DNA from: Spirochaeta cellobiosiphila DSM 17781
GTDB taxonomy: Bacteria; Spirochaetota; Spirochaetia; DSM-17781
Direction of reading: 5' to 3'
Assembly (NCBI RefSeq): GCF_000426705.1
Contig: NZ_KE384557.1
Coordinates: 1 to 64,000, forward strand
Length of the DNA: 64,000 nucleotides
The notes beneath the pieces were generated by a model that was not told the DNA's origin, did not search any database, and saw only the letters and a list, made by a program, of their open reading frames with translations. This document shows positions 25,222 through 54,603 of this stretch, piece after piece; positions within the stretch are counted from its first letter, which is position 1; every line of letters begins with the position of its first letter. The translations under genes were made by a program, and so were the position numbers.

Positions 25222-25249
25222 TAAAAAAGAGGTTAATCCCATCCGATAA
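25222..25249 (+). promoter_or_regulatory. sigma28-like promoter in front of flgB
   Basis: TAAA (25222-25225), a 16-base spacer and TCCGATAA (25242-25249) match the sigma28/FliA consensus TAAA-N15-GCCGATAA with one extra spacer base. It lies 25 bases before the flgB ATG. A site with the same spacing and the shared word CCCA(T/A)CCGATAA occurs at 52249. The cognate sigma factor gene is at 48690. Confidence 0.55.
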
Positions 25250-25274
25250 GAGTGTATGAAGGAGGATGTTTTTC

Positions 25275-48085: not shown

Positions 48086-48676
48086 ATGCCAAATTGGAAA
48101 ATTCCTTCCATTATTGGTGGGATTTCTTTAGTTTTTGCCATCTTATTAGGAATGATCTCAAAAGTAAGTTTAATAACTGTTCTTTGGAGGTCTCTTTTTT
48201 CTGGAATTCTTATGGGTGGTTTTTCATTTGGTACATCTTTCATTCTTTCCAGATTTTTACCAGAACTAGGAAATTCTTCTGATGTTCCTGATATAGATAA
48301 TGATGACTTCAATAATGAATCAAGAGTTAATATTGTTTTGCCAGAAGATAATGGGTTTGCCCCAGTCGCTGAGGATGACAATGAAGAGGCTGTTGAAGTT
48401 ATAGAAGCTATTGATGAAGACGGGCCGGCACCAGCAAAAGATATGGATAGAATTTCCAGTCAAAATCTAGGTGATGTTGATAATTTACCGGATATGGATT
48501 CTTTTTCTGCTGACTTTGCAGAAGGGACTTTCGTTGAAGAGGGGAGTGAGGCCTCTGAATCTAGTATATCAGATTCAAGCTCACAGTATGAGAGTGCAGA
48601 GGTAGATGTAGCAGGAATGCAAAGTTCACCTCAAGAGATCGCGAAAGCGGTTCAGACTATTATGAAGAAGGATTAG
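48086..48676 (+). CDS. uncharacterised membrane protein with acidic tail, between flhG and whiG
   Basis: A 196-residue protein with two membrane segments close together (~8-25, [16 protein letters not shown], and ~29-55, [24 protein letters not shown]). A strongly acidic, Ser-rich cytoplasmic tail follows and ends [16 protein letters not shown]. No named domain recognised. It sits inside the motility run with the same orientation, 57 bases after flhG and 13 before the sigma factor gene, so a flagellar or regulatory role is likely by context only. Confidence 0.78.
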
Positions 48677-48689
48677 AGGGATAGTAGCC

Positions 48690-49475
48690 ATGGAGAATCT
48701 GCTGGAACAATATACTGAAGAAGAACTTTGGAAACAATATAAAGACTCACGTGATCCTAGTATTCGTGATACTTTCATAAAACAGTATGCTCCTTTGGTG
48801 AGATATGTCGCTGGAAAAGTTTCTGTAGGAATGCCTCATAATGTCGAATTCGATGATTTAGTAGGCTATGGAGTATTTGGATTATTTGACGCTATAGATA
48901 AATTTGATCCTGAGAAACATGTTAAATTCAAAACATACGCTGTAACCAGGATAAGAGGTGCTATTTTTGATGAGTTACGGTCGATTGACTGGGTTCCTCG
49001 TTCAGTTCGACAAAAGACTAGAGAATTGGAAGATACTGTACAGCATTTGGAAGCCAGTCTAGGTCGTTCTGCCTCTGATGCAGAAATAGCTAATAAGATG
49101 GGAATATCTGTAAATGATTTTCAGAAGGTTTTGTTAAAGATCTCAGGGACAAGTATATTATCTTTAAATGATGTTTGGTATACAGGCGAAGAGAATGATA
49201 AAGTATCTATCGTTGATAGTATTGAATCTCCTACAAGCCTTAATCCTGATACTATTGTAGAAAAAGACGAAATAAAAAGAGTTATTGTTGAAGCCATTCA
49301 ATCTCTTCCAGAAAAAGAAAAAAAAGTTTTAGTCCTATATTATTATGAGGATCTCACTCTAAAAGAAATAGGTAAGGTTTTGGAAGTCACTGAGTCCAGG
49401 GTAAGCCAGTTACATACAAAAGCCATAATGAGGTTAAGATCCAAATTGACTAATATCAAAAAAGGTATATTCTAA
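48690..49475 (+). CDS. fliA: flagellar sigma factor sigma28 (FliA/WhiG)
   Basis: Group 3 sigma factor of 261 residues. Region 2: [73 protein letters not shown]. Region 3 follows, then region 4: [45 protein letters not shown]. It directs RNA polymerase to TAAA-N15-GCCGATAA-type promoters; two close matches occur in this window (25222, 52249). No flgM anti-sigma gene is recognisable here. It overlaps the next gene by TAATG. Also named whiG. Confidence 0.96.
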
Positions 49476-51424
49476 TGTCCATGATCAACCTTCAACAGAT
49501 TAAAGATTTCATGAGAAATCAGGTTGAAAGAGATCGAGAAAATAAGAGTGTTCATGTTACAGGTGAAACGCTGGATGACTCTTTACGACAAGCCTCTATT
49601 GAATTGGGGGTTCCTCTACGTAAATTAGAATATGAAGTATTACAGAAGGGTAGGAAGGGATTTCCTGGATTTCCTAAGAAGTTATGGAGTCTGCTAGTAT
49701 ATCCAGTTTTAGATATTACTACTGATGAAGATCAGGTTATAGCTGATTTTGAACATCTTGATTATGAATATGATAAGAAAGAAGAAGTTGTTGATCAAGA
49801 TGGAAGAGTCTATTTGAGATTAGCCTATAATGGTGCTTTTTTGATGAGTGAACCACCCATTGGTAAAGGTAAACCTGCAAAAGAAAAAGATGCACAAAAG
49901 CTTATTGGTGAAAAAGCAATAAGAGAAATTGATAAGGAATTGCTTAAGAAGGTTGTTACATTATCAACTGGTGAATGGGTTAAAATAGGTGAATTTATTC
50001 ATAATCCTGCTGCAGATGCCATTATGACTGTAGATATCAGTATAGATGAACAACAGGCCTTTATTAAGGTAACTTCACCTGGCCCTGGAGGGGCCGACCT
50101 TTCAGAACGGGACATAAGAGCCATGTTAAGAAATAATGGCATCGTTTATGGAGCAAAAGAACAAGCTATAAAAAATTTTGAGAAGCAGCCCATATATAAT
50201 GAGAATTATCTTATAGCCGAAGGGGATAAGCCTGTACATGGTAAAGATGCCAAAATAACCTATACTTTCCAAACTGATCCAACAAAGATCACTCCCAAGG
50301 AAAAAAATGGAAAGGTTGATTTCAAAAATCTAAATCTAGTTCAAAATGTGGTAAAAGGTCAGATTTTAGCAAGAAAGACCTTAGCTGAGAAAGGAAAACC
50401 GGGCAAGACAGTCACAGGTAAAGCGATACCGGCAAGAGATGGAACTGACTATCCAATTCCTTTAGGAAATAATGTCAATTTATCTATAGATGGTACTATC
50501 GTTACTGCCGATACGAACGGTCAAGTATTGTTATTAAATGGAAAAATAACTGTTGAGACTGTTAGAATTATCACTGGCGACGTTGGTGTGGCTACGGGTA
50601 ATATAAAGAGTCTTGGTACTGTTATTGTAAAAGGTAATGTTGAAGATGGGTATGCTATAGAGGCTGCAGGAAACATAGAAGTTAATGGAACTGTTGGCAA
50701 AGCTGATTTGAAAACGGAAGGTGATATCATTGTCCACCAAGGAATTACTGGTGGTGAAGATAGCAAAGTCGTTGCTGGTCAGTCTGTTTGGTCTAAGTTT
50801 ATTCAAAACGCTACTGTAGATGCTGGTCACTTTATCGTAGTAAGTGATGGTATTATGCACTCAAAAGTAGATGCCAATAAAAAGATACTTTGTCAGGGGA
50901 AAAGGGCCAAGATTGTAGGCGGTCATTTAAGAGCTGCTGAAGAAGTCAATGCTTCTGTTCTTGGTGCTCCGGGCTCTGCAGAAACTATTATAGAGGTAGG
51001 TTATGATCCAAAAGCTAAGGAAGAATTGGAAGAGCTTTTAGAACAGGAACAAATCCTTGATGCCAAGATAAATGAAATTGAGTTAAATCTACAAGGTTTA
51101 ATTAATCAAAAGCGTTCAAAGCAGACATTAGACGAAACAAAAGAAAACTTTTTGAGGGACCTTTTACAGGATAAAGAAATAAAAGGAAGAGAACATGAAA
51201 CTCTTACCAGTAAAATTCAGCAAAAACAAGAATATCTATCTAACTTGGAATTTGTAGGGAAGATATCTTCCTCTTCCCAGGTTTTTCCTGGTGTAAAAGT
51301 TTTAATAAAAGACGCCGAGTATGAAGTAACAACTGAGTTTGGTTCTGTCACATTTATCAATGAAGGTGGAATTATTAGAACTGCAGCATACGAGGAAATT
51401 GAGGACGACATTAGTAGGGGGTGA
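49475..51424 (+). CDS. FapA (DUF342) family protein with Jag-N domain
   Basis: The 649-residue protein begins with a Jag_N-like unit (~22-75, VHVTGETLDDSLRQASIELGVPLRKLEYEVLQKGRKGFPGF). From about 160 it is a FapA/DUF342 protein with a region of right-handed beta-helix turns (TVIVKGNVEDGYAIEAAGNIEVNGTVGKADLKTEGDIIVHQGITG), then a C-terminal coiled coil (~510-590) and a final beta strand region. DUF342 proteins are linked to polymer or surface-associated processes, but no enzymatic role is established. It is translationally coupled to the sigma factor gene. Confidence 0.88.
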   Translation: MSMINLQQIKDFMRNQVERDRENKSVHVTGETLDDSLRQASIELGVPLRKLEYEVLQKGRKGFPGFPKKLWSLLVYPVLDITTDEDQVIADFEHLDYEYDKKEEVVDQDGRVYLRLAYNGAFLMSEPPIGKGKPAKEKDAQKLIGEKAIREIDKELLKKVVTLSTGEWVKIGEFIHNPAADAIMTVDISIDEQQAFIKVTSPGPGGADLSERDIRAMLRNNGIVYGAKEQAIKNFEKQPIYNENYLIAEGDKPVHGKDAKITYTFQTDPTKITPKEKNGKVDFKNLNLVQNVVKGQILARKTLAEKGKPGKTVTGKAIPARDGTDYPIPLGNNVNLSIDGTIVTADTNGQVLLLNGKITVETVRIITGDVGVATGNIKSLGTVIVKGNVEDGYAIEAAGNIEVNGTVGKADLKTEGDIIVHQGITGGEDSKVVAGQSVWSKFIQNATVDAGHFIVVSDGIMHSKVDANKKILCQGKRAKIVGGHLRAAEEVNASVLGAPGSAETIIEVGYDPKAKEELEELLEQEQILDAKINEIELNLQGLINQKRSKQTLDETKENFLRDLLQDKEIKGREHETLTSKIQQKQEYLSNLEFVGKISSSSQVFPGVKVLIKDAEYEVTTEFGSVTFINEGGIIRTAAYEEIEDDISRG

Positions 51425-51426
51425 TA

Positions 51427-51753
51427 ATGCCTATACATCCTATAGATCTACAAACTCTTTTTATAAAAATGAATCAGGTAGGTAAAGAACAGGCTGATGC
51501 CCGAAACAGTGTTGTTGCTAGTCAAGAAATACAGAATAAGGAAGAGATAAAGAAACATCAACAAAAAGATAATTCAGTCAACCAAACTTCAGAAACATCT
51601 GATGGTCCAGATAAATTGAAAGACGATAATGCCCAGGGGAACTCAGAAAGTTCTGATAAACAGGACAGTAAAAAAAGTAAAAAAGAAGTAAATCCTGAAC
51701 AGAACGTGTACAAAGATCCTGATCTTGGATCGCATATTGATATTACAGGATAA
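51427..51753 (+). CDS. small, highly polar, probably disordered protein
   Basis: A 108-residue protein with a hydrophobic start (MPIHPIDLQTLFIKMNQVGKEQADARNSVVASQ) and then a long Lys/Gln/Asp/Ser-rich stretch, ending PEQNVYKDPDLGSHIDITG. No known domain. The last residues and the N-terminal helix look most constrained. ATG 51427 has GGGGG five bases upstream, overlapping the FapA stop, so it is coupled to fapA. Confidence 0.7.
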   Translation: MPIHPIDLQTLFIKMNQVGKEQADARNSVVASQEIQNKEEIKKHQQKDNSVNQTSETSDGPDKLKDDNAQGNSESSDKQDSKKSKKEVNPEQNVYKDPDLGSHIDITG

Positions 51754-51756
51754 CTA

Positions 51757-52251
51757 ATGAAATATTTTATTATTACAACTATAATTATAGGTATACAAGT
51801 ATTGGGTTTCCTATACATACGCTATTATATACGTAAGAATCTCAATCCTCATAATCTCTTATTGGAAATTCGTAGTGAGATTGATGATATTATAAAAGAA
51901 ATAAATACCATTACAGATAGAAATATTGGTATTCTAGAGGATAGAATACATAAAATAAAGAGTCTAATTGCTCAAGCTGATAATCTAAACAAGAACTTAT
52001 CCCCCAAAAAAATTCCTAAACAAGAATTAGTAGATTTCTCTAAATTAGTAGAAAAACCTATTCTGAAGCAAAAAGCGGATCCTATCGAAAGTGTAAAAGA
52101 TTTAGGACAAACAAAAATAGAAAGTCACAAAGAACAAGTCATAAAATTATATAGACAGGGCTTTAGTCCTGATGTTATATCTTCAAAAGTTGGGATTACC
52201 TTAGGAGAAGTAGAACTAATAATATCTATCATGGGTCAAGGTTTATTGTAA
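51757..52251 (+). CDS. bitopic membrane protein with coiled coil and DUF6115-like C-terminal helix-turn-helix
   Basis: The 164-residue protein has an N-terminal membrane segment (~2-24, KYFIITTIIIGIQVLGFLYIRYYI), a coiled coil (~35-75), a linker, and a C-terminal segment HKEQVIKLYRQGFSPDVISSKVGITLGEVELIISIM. The last part matches the small helix-turn-helix seen at the end of DUF6115/DUF2802-type proteins in motility regions. It is three bases after the preceding gene. Function unknown; its stop overlaps the next promoter's -35. Confidence 0.78.
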   Translation: MKYFIITTIIIGIQVLGFLYIRYYIRKNLNPHNLLLEIRSEIDDIIKEINTITDRNIGILEDRIHKIKSLIAQADNLNKNLSPKKIPKQELVDFSKLVEKPILKQKADPIESVKDLGQTKIESHKEQVIKLYRQGFSPDVISSKVGITLGEVELIISIMGQGLL

Positions 52252-52276
52252 ATTAACCATTGTTCCCAACCGATAA
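52249..52276 (+). promoter_or_regulatory. sigma28-like promoter for the J-domain/CheA-like genes
   Basis: TAAA (52249-52252), a 16-base spacer and ACCGATAA (52269-52276). Spacing equals the flgB site, and both share CCCA(T/A)CCGATAA. It overlaps the stop codon of the preceding gene and lies 46 bases before the next ATG. Confidence 0.55.
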
Positions 52277-52322
52277 TATATGAGTAAATAGTTATAGGAA
52301 TTATAAAAGTAGGAGACTGTTT

Positions 52323-52931
52323 ATGCAAATAGCTGAGTCGTATAAAATATTGGGAGTACCCTATGGTAGTGATCTAGAATCCATAAAGATGGCGTACCGC
52401 AAACTAGCTAAGCAATATCATCCAGATCATGGACAACAGAATACTTTACTTTTTTGTAAGATTCATGACGCGTATACGTCATTAAAATCTTCATCTTCCG
52501 TTATTAAATCCAGGGTTAATGGGTATAATGAAATAGATATATTATCTATGGGCGATTTACTAATCAAAGGTTCTACCTCAACTATACGAAAATATGCAGC
52601 TAGACAGCTTGGGCTGTCAGGAAAGATGACTTCTTATACCTACCTAAGAAAAGGATTGGTTGATAAAGATATGAGTGTTGTTCGAACTGTCATACAATCC
52701 ATAGCTAAGCTTAAGATGAATCGGGCCATTCCAGAACTAGGACTAATCTTTAAAAAAAGTGATTCATCAATAAGAAAAGAGATATTAGAAGCTTGTTTAA
52801 AGATAGGAGCAAATCCTATGATGAATTATATAGTTCAAGAAGCTAAACGCGATCTTAATAATGAGATAAGATTTAGTGCAACTTTATTAGAAAAACAAAT
52901 CAGGATGTCCATGCGTGTCAATACGAGATAA
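52323..52931 (+). CDS. J-domain protein with HEAT-like repeats
   Basis: The 202-residue protein starts with a J domain (~5-60) holding the HPD tripeptide at 33-35 (KQYHPDHG), which stimulates DnaK ATPase. No Gly/Phe or zinc-finger region follows. Instead residues ~75-200 form HEAT/armadillo-like helical pairs (TSTIRKYAARQLGLSG, DKDMSVVRTVIQSIAKLKMNRAIPEL, SDSSIRKEILEACLKIGA, NNEIRFSATLLEKQI). It is a dedicated adaptor rather than DnaJ itself. It lies behind a sigma28-like promoter and overlaps the CheA-like gene by 17 bases. Confidence 0.85.
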   Translation: MQIAESYKILGVPYGSDLESIKMAYRKLAKQYHPDHGQQNTLLFCKIHDAYTSLKSSSSVIKSRVNGYNEIDILSMGDLLIKGSTSTIRKYAARQLGLSGKMTSYTYLRKGLVDKDMSVVRTVIQSIAKLKMNRAIPELGLIFKKSDSSIRKEILEACLKIGANPMMNYIVQEAKRDLNNEIRFSATLLEKQIRMSMRVNTR

Positions 52932-54603
52932 TGAGACTGTCAATAAAAAACAATTTATAACTAGTATCTATGGATTAATAAATAAATATTGGAATACAGG
53001 GGAATTTGATAGAAAAGAAGCTTTTAGACTTGCCCATAATATAAAATCCACCTACTCTTTTGCGGGACAAAATAAATTAGCTGAACAGGCTCATAACCTC
53101 GAAACATTCTTAAACAACATAGGTGCTGTACCTATTAACGATGATTATGTCATTAAGGTTAAAAAACAAATTGATGATTTACAATCATTGGCTTATTTTG
53201 AAAGCAGTCATTCGAAAAGTTCAGATGAATTTGAAGATAAATTACTAAAGGAATCTATTTATAGAGGAGAAACTCTATTCAGAATAAGGTTTACTATTGA
53301 TCCCTTTGAAATAATGCCCTATGCAAGAGCTTTTCTTGTTGTAAACATTCTTGAACAAAACATGCAAATCATAAGAATAGAGCCTAGCATTGCCATACAT
53401 AATCAAAGTAGAACCTATGATATTTATGCTACCACAAAATATGTATCTAATCATATAAAATCATTAATAGATGTAGACAATATAGCATCCATTGATATAA
53501 CAAGTTTACCATATACTAGTTTAACCAGTCCCTATGAGGCAGATGTTTTTGATGTATTGATCAATAATGATAGTTATGACTCAAATGCTAATAAAATAAA
53601 GTACCTTCAGCGTCAATATCACTTTTTTATCATATCAAAACTAAGAAAAGAAAAAAGACTTGATCATGCCTATAGAATCTTTACCAAATCCATTGATAAT
53701 TTAACCAATATAACCGTTAATGAGTTCTTTTCTAAATACCAAAATAGAATTAAGGACTTAGCAGACCATCTCGGTAAAAGAGTAATTCTTAACGTCGAGA
53801 ATGGAAAACTTGAATTGAATCAAAGTGTTCTGAGTGAGTTGGATATCGTTTTTATTCATTTGATACGTAACTCTTTAGCACATGGTATTGAATATGCAGA
53901 ACAACGAAGAGAATCGGGAAAACCTCAAATAGCTACTATTAGTATTAATATAGAAATAAAAAATAATCGATTGGTCATTAACTATAAGGATGATGGTAAG
54001 GGAATTGATAGAGCAAAGATTAAGGCTCTAGCCAGTCAAAATATAAAAGATAATGATGATAAAAGTTTAATTGACCTCATAAGTATACCAGGTTTAAGCA
54101 CACAGAATGAAGTTAATTCCATGGCAGGTAGAGGATTAGGTATTGAAATTATTCGTAACACTATCGAACAAAAATTGCAAGGAACAATCAATGTCCAATC
54201 ACTTTTACAGAAGGGAACAGAATTTTCTATAGAGATTCCTTATGCCTTTGATAGTGAAGAATATTTAATTGTTAATGTGAACAAAACATTAATGGCCATA
54301 CCTACCATATCTATTGAAGTCTATGGTCCGTTATCTGATATGCTAGAGATTTATTCTCAAGAAGAATTACCTCTCTACAAGTCAACAATGATGATTGATA
54401 GGAATACAGAAGAGAATACATTGGCTCTCATCTGTTGGTATGGAAATAAAAAAGCTATTCTTTTGTGTGATGAGATACTATATAAAGAAAGCATTGATTG
54501 GGGTGAATTTTCACTAACGTCGACAGGTCAAAGTTACCTATACTATTTTGAAAAACAAGGGTATGTCAAAGATTACCTTTATCTGGATTTAGCCTTTATA
54601 TAA
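52915..54603 (+). CDS. CheA-like histidine kinase, divergent
   Basis: The 562-residue protein follows CheA architecture: an HPt domain with phospho-acceptor His41 in FRLAHNIKSTYSFAG, a mid-domain (~112-215) and a helical dimerisation part. The HATPase domain has N box FIHLIRNSLAHGIE, G1 DDGKGID and G2 GRGLGIEIIRN, and a C-terminal CheW-like domain starts at ~440 (EEYLIVNVNKTLMAIPTISIEV). All catalytic boxes are present but the sequence is divergent. GTG 52915, nine bases after AGGA, overlaps the J-domain gene. Likely controls motility or another surface process; no receptor or response regulator gene is adjacent. Confidence 0.88.
   Translation: MSIRDNETVNKKQFITSIYGLINKYWNTGEFDRKEAFRLAHNIKSTYSFAGQNKLAEQAHNLETFLNNIGAVPINDDYVIKVKKQIDDLQSLAYFESSHSKSSDEFEDKLLKESIYRGETLFRIRFTIDPFEIMPYARAFLVVNILEQNMQIIRIEPSIAIHNQSRTYDIYATTKYVSNHIKSLIDVDNIASIDITSLPYTSLTSPYEADVFDVLINNDSYDSNANKIKYLQRQYHFFIISKLRKEKRLDHAYRIFTKSIDNLTNITVNEFFSKYQNRIKDLADHLGKRVILNVENGKLELNQSVLSELDIVFIHLIRNSLAHGIEYAEQRRESGKPQIATISINIEIKNNRLVINYKDDGKGIDRAKIKALASQNIKDNDDKSLIDLISIPGLSTQNEVNSMAGRGLGIEIIRNTIEQKLQGTINVQSLLQKGTEFSIEIPYAFDSEEYLIVNVNKTLMAIPTISIEVYGPLSDMLEIYSQEELPLYKSTMMIDRNTEENTLALICWYGNKKAILLCDEILYKESIDWGEFSLTSTGQSYLYYFEKQGYVKDYLYLDLAFI

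Follow-up and report, generated by a model that had tools for sequence, protein, structure and literature searches.

Two genes at the 3′ end of a spirochaete flagellar superoperon, encoding a J-domain protein with HEAT repeats (J-HEAT) and a CheA-like kinase, appear from their sequences and gene neighbourhoods to be functionally separate add-ons, the first being the remnant of an Hsp70/J-HEAT chaperone pair and the second an offshoot of CheA that looks uncoupled from receptors. We give this reading a probability of about 0.55. It is drawn from the observation that, among related loci, the J-HEAT gene tracks an Hsp70 gene while the J-HEAT and kinase genes are not associated with each other.

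Gene organization of the locus

The window (the whole 64-kb stretch of DNA that was analysed) comes from a genome of the class Spirochaetia and contains a complete flagellar superoperon, which runs from flgB (position 25266) through flhA, flhF, flhG, a FlgV-like gene, fliA, fapA and a YjfB-like gene to a DUF6115 gene. The J-HEAT and kinase genes are located directly 3′ of the DUF6115 gene on the same strand and close the flgB-to-fapA superoperon. The features of this end are as follows:

48086..48676, + strand: FlgV-like gene, lying between flhG and fliA, the position given in PMC11607428; no Pfam or NCBIfam match above cut-off
48690..49475, + strand: fliA (sigma-28), identified from its translation and conserved in all loci
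49475..51424, + strand: fapA (Pfam FapA, 4.3e-66)
51421..51753, + strand: YjfB-like small gene, with N- and C-terminal motifs conserved in 19 loci; named from its position in PMC11607428
51757..52251, + strand: DUF6115 gene (TM + HTH; Pfam DUF6115, 2e-8)
52323..52931, + strand: J-HEAT gene, 202 aa (Pfam; AlphaFold mean pLDDT 92.8; matches to HEAT/alphaRep folds)
52915..52931, + strand: overlap of the J-HEAT and kinase genes, 17 bp (ORF coordinates)
52915..54603, + strand: CheA-like kinase gene, 562 aa, GTG start (Pfam, phmmer, AlphaFold and fold matches)

The 17-bp overlap is the one reported in the original prediction, which had coupled the J-domain protein to the kinase. The YjfB-like protein carries the conserved sequences PIDLQ and DPDLG..IDISG at opposite ends, with a variable middle. 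Next after the kinase gene lies glgA, which is convergent and overlaps the 3′ end of the kinase gene by 25 bp (54579-54603).

Two samples were compared with the window: the same region from 40 relatives (41 genomes with the source genome), and 80 spirochaete contigs found via the YjfB-like protein, hereafter the named loci. Some contigs are common to both samples, obvious duplicates having been partly removed. The 19-sequence version of the YjfB-like profile was too loose for scanning, and the 10-sequence set was used. Across relatives, the J-HEAT and kinase genes occupied a fixed place in the flagellar cluster. With kinship ignored, the kinase was present in 18 of the 30 genomes that have the fapA cluster and full-length J-HEAT in 11 of the 30, and both were absent from the 11 genomes without the cluster. 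The link to flagella that had been proposed for the pair is thus borne out in these 41 genomes, the flagellar superoperon including both genes, and a chaperone step for flagellar parts, also put forward in the original prediction, stays plausible. Full-length J-HEAT was rare among 296 genomes of the phylum and absent from the many Treponema-like and Borrelia-like ones, these group names being our own assignments.

A promoter-like element shared with flgB

A promoter-like element precedes the J-HEAT gene, and one of equal sequence and spacing precedes flgB:

25222..25249, + strand: matching promoter-like element before flgB
52249..52276, + strand: promoter-like element TAAA-N17-CCGATAA, 47-74 bp upstream of the J-HEAT gene

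The 13-mer TCCCNNCCGATAA occurs in three exact copies in the 3.95-Mb genome, at 25237 (before flgB), at 52264 (before J-HEAT) and inside an unrelated gene; the narrow TAAA-N17-CCGATAA pattern was chosen after the flgB and J-HEAT sites had both been seen. A loose sigma-28 pattern was not enriched (34 occurrences versus 94 in the reversed control), and for this reason only the narrow shared element was used. The element common to flgB and J-HEAT fits a candidate flagellar promoter, and to this extent the flagellar-type promoter that had been proposed stands. Its attribution to sigma-28 (FliA) is unproven, because no exact copy of the 13-mer was present ahead of the flagellin genes. In many relatives the gene following DUF6115 begins at the DUF6115 stop codon or a few bases away, so that transcription reading through from the superoperon seems to be the commoner arrangement.

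The J-HEAT protein

The domains of the J-HEAT protein are located as follows:

52338..52493, + strand: J domain, residues 6-57 (Pfam DnaJ, 7.8e-13)
52557..52793, + strand: HEAT repeats, residues 79-157 (Pfam HEAT_2, 4.4e-8)

The HPD motif (52419-52427, residues 33-35) was invariant in all 26 aligned homologues, and the AlphaFold model resembles HEAT-type repeat proteins. A J-domain protein with an intact HPD and HEAT-like repeats, as had been recognized from the sequence, is therefore encoded here. Assignment as a canonical (class A/B) or general DnaJ was rejected, with a TIGR02349 score of 39.5 bits against a cut-off of 377. A phage origin was likewise rejected, the PHROGs matches spanning essentially the J domain.

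J-HEAT tracks Hsp70 and not the kinase

Co-occurrence was counted in the 54 named loci whose downstream sequence reached 4.5 kb or more. Hsp70, J-HEAT and kinase genes were found together in 12 of these loci, in that order; nine had Hsp70 and J-HEAT, 16 the kinase only, one Hsp70 and kinase, one J-HEAT and kinase, and 15 none of the three. An Hsp70 gene of about 500-610 residues, usually overlapping J-HEAT, was located immediately upstream in 21 of the 22 loci bearing J-HEAT (association, p = 9e-13). This arrangement of a J gene beside its own Hsp70, which would mark a dedicated pair, is not present in the window. When independent pairs were taken on the FapA tree of 81 loci, 7.2 agreed and none opposed the J-HEAT/Hsp70 association, out of 9 (median p 0.016).

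No association between J-HEAT and kinase was detected in the same 54 loci (Fisher p = 0.78), also after five loci of the cheW-cheA-cheY type were dropped (p = 0.39) or counted as lacking the degenerate kinase (p = 0.17). Of the 22 loci bearing J-HEAT, 9 had no kinase; of the 30 bearing the kinase, 17 had no J-HEAT. On the FapA tree, 2.2 independent pairs agreed, 0.2 opposed and 6.5 were undecided (median p = 0.5), few pairs being informative.

These counts bear on the possibility that J-HEAT, acting with Hsp70 or DnaK, serves specifically as a chaperone for the folding, assembly or turnover of the CheA-like kinase. The two genes adjoin, and often overlap, wherever both occur, and the order with Hsp70 in front recurs in the 12 loci noted above; a functional link in some lineages is therefore possible. 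A chaperone devoted to the kinase is nevertheless an unlikely account, given that each gene so often occurs without the other, with no association before or after correction for the tree, and that outside the class Hsp70 and J-HEAT occur without such a kinase beside them. The proposal of J-HEAT as a dedicated partner of the CheA-like kinase thus is not supported by the comparison: conservation in the cluster applies to each gene singly and not to the two as a unit. Because J-HEAT follows Hsp70 and is unassociated with the kinase, we prefer the reading of two separate add-ons.

The Hsp70 gene, absent from the window and present in other lineages

No Hsp70 gene was found in the window, and a remnant, which was also considered, left no trace there. 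Canonical DnaK was the only full Hsp70 found in the source genome; this genome is 96% complete, so that an Hsp70 gene that had moved could be missed. In the superoperon Hsp70 proteins of other genomes, the ATPase residues were kept in 32 of 35 checked. Reduced forms also occur. Only the first ~40 residues of Hsp70 remain in locus L163; in L073 and L179, Hsp70 is reduced to the C-terminal substrate-binding part, and in L074 and L076 it is without key ATPase residues, in all four beside a J-HEAT gene with HPD. One Hsp70 outside the class is also without some ATPase residues.

Outside the class Spirochaetia, locus L231 has the order fapA-DUF6115-Hsp70-J-HEAT, with no such kinase beside it. Another such locus (L226, genome G055 contig 61) has cheD-cheR-cheB-comFB-Hsp70-J-HEAT-grpE, the whole Hsp70 machine in one row, and a 1019-aa HEAT/guanylate-cyclase protein is encoded after grpE. 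A Borrelia-like locus (L210) contains FlgV, FapA, YjfB-like, DUF6115 and Hsp70 genes followed by a reversed signal-peptidase-like gene, and thus keeps Hsp70 alone, at the place of bb0264. In B. burgdorferi, bb0264 ends the flgB superoperon and is reported to be co-transcribed with it (PMC11607428). By its gene order, L210 is probably from Borrelia, and its Hsp70 would then be bb0264.

The CheA-like kinase

The kinase has the following domains:

52999..53187, + strand: HPt (P1) domain (Pfam Hpt, 1.5e-6)
53278..53502, + strand: P2 response-regulator docking domain (Pfam P2, 5e-7)
53566..53706, + strand: short stretch of two helices where the P3 dimerisation domain would be expected (AlphaFold helices 218-241 and 247-264, low local confidence)
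53854..54243, + strand: P4 kinase (HATPase) domain with N, G1 and G2 boxes (Pfam HATPase_c, 3.9e-13; box residues invariant)
54253..54585, + strand: degenerate P5-like beta domain (AlphaFold strands 447-557)

The phospho-acceptor His41 (53035-53037) was invariant in all 38 aligned flagellar-cluster CheA proteins. With this residue and the three boxes, the CheA-like kinase of the original prediction is confirmed. Its "CheW-like end" holds in part: phmmer aligned the C-terminus into P5 of Thermotoga maritima CheA and the AlphaFold model (pLDDT 82; best PDB matches, CheA) has a beta domain there, but Pfam CheW gave no match. No Pfam match to P3 was obtained either. The C-terminal domain, though missed by Pfam, may still bind CheW. 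Four other CheA-like proteins are encoded in the source genome, and these have a CheW domain.

Among the 38 flagellar-cluster kinases, Pfam recognized HPt and HATPase in all, P2 in 37, CheW/P5 in seven and P3 in five. Four of the 38 came from cassette loci, with cheW-cheA-cheY in L137, L143 and L176 and Hsp70-cheW-cheA-cheY in L150. In L174, cheW-cheA is located at the superoperon end, where the contig ends. In the kinase tree, the cassette kinases grouped with canonical CheAs and a branch with SH-aLRT 100 set the degenerate ones apart, the window kinase being a very long branch within the degenerate line. The simplest account would be descent of this line, with loss of CheW coupling, from a receptor-coupled CheA at the superoperon end; because the root of the tree is not fixed, this direction of change is only inferred.

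Alternatively, the kinase may be an ordinary but diverged CheA of a second chemosensory array, with CheW, receptors and CheY encoded elsewhere. This would agree with its P5-like C-terminal fold, with the presence of several genes for CheW and CheY-like proteins in other parts of the genome, and with the cheW-cheA-cheY cassettes that related loci have at this position. Against it, the P5 and P3 domains are recognizable in only the few kinases given above, of which at least four are cassette kinases; the degenerate kinases form a separate branch; and no che gene adjoins the kinase in the window. A lone cheW, the single CheW gene of the 64 kb, is located at the window start (419-904), about 51 kb from the kinase and without a chemotaxis neighbour in the window. 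Neither cheW nor a receptor or cheY gene, as expected beside the cheA of a receptor-coupled system, adjoins the kinase, and the 64 kb contain no response regulator gene, the nearest on the contig being at 95.6 kb. The earlier statement that no CheY or CheB gene lies nearby thus holds for response regulators. The second signalling array that had been suggested is weakened by the lack of a recognizable CheW-coupling domain in the kinase, and we consider an ordinary CheA rather unlikely.

Both genes might also be relics, J-HEAT persisting after the loss of Hsp70 and a fast-evolving kinase being on its way out. The missing Hsp70 of the window, the C-terminal fragments in L073 and L179, the ATPase residues lost in L074 and L076 and the very long branch of the window kinase would all be in keeping with decay. 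However, the open frames are full-length, the phospho-acceptor His, the N and G boxes and HPD are all kept, and a promoter-like element is held in common with flgB, which makes this explanation very improbable.

A proposed model of two add-ons

For the preferred reading of two separate add-ons, we infer client, partner, regulator and any phenotype as follows. The first add-on would be the remnant of an Hsp70/J-HEAT chaperone pair dedicated to the flagellum. The role of the J domain would be to power the ATPase cycle of Hsp70, and that of the HEAT solenoid to select the client, most probably a flagellar protein encoded in the same superoperon. Because the Hsp70 gene seems to have been lost from the lineage of the window, J-HEAT presumably works there with the housekeeping DnaK. 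The second add-on would be a CheA offshoot whose phosphorelay core (P1 His, P2 dock and P4 kinase) is intact and which, with no recognizable CheW-coupling domain and a reduced dimerisation region, probably acts without CheW and receptors. It would pass phosphate to CheY or another regulator and so tune motor rotation or flagellar output.

If the kinase line works without CheW, a chemotaxis-derived kinase is wired to the flagellum without receptors in some spirochaetes, and the scheme of motor control for this phylum would need to be redrawn. Should the Hsp70/J-HEAT pair be dedicated to the flagellum, it would suggest a role for the gene that ends the Borrelia flgB superoperon, for which the papers searched give none. 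A bolder extension, which we regard as doubtful, is that a widespread CheW-free line of flagellar-cluster CheAs, off the receptor arrays, and the Hsp70/J-HEAT machine together form a proteostasis-plus-phosphorelay checkpoint on spirochaete flagellar assembly.

Comparison with known systems

All the components belong to known kinds. The J-HEAT protein, a role for the superoperon Hsp70 and the degenerate CheA line are undescribed in the papers searched, subscription papers being mostly outside this search. The kinase shares with the chemotaxis CheAs the P1-P2-P4 order, the phospho-acceptor His and the ATP-binding boxes, and among PDB structures its best matches, by sequence and by fold, are to T. 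maritima CheA (2ch4 and 1b3q). It differs from them in lacking a Pfam-recognizable P3 or P5 and an adjacent cheW, receptor or cheY gene, and in its location inside a flagellar superoperon. B. burgdorferi CheA1 is similar in being a spirochaete CheA other than the main chemotaxis kinase, but it has all five domains, P1-P5, and cheW2, cheB2 and cheY2 are encoded alongside it (PMC10703414). The genes of the window lie at the same place as bb0264, after FapA, YjfB-like and DUF6115 (PMC11607428), where L210 has Hsp70; the Borrelia-like genome is without J-HEAT and kinase there, whereas the window is without Hsp70. J-HEAT also resembles the class C (DnaJ C-type) J proteins that have a dedicated Hsp70, in that an HPD-bearing J domain is encoded beside its own Hsp70 in relatives, with GrpE present too in L226. 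It differs from class C J proteins in the Hsp70 missing from the window, in its site in a flagellar operon and in its client module, which consists of HEAT repeats.
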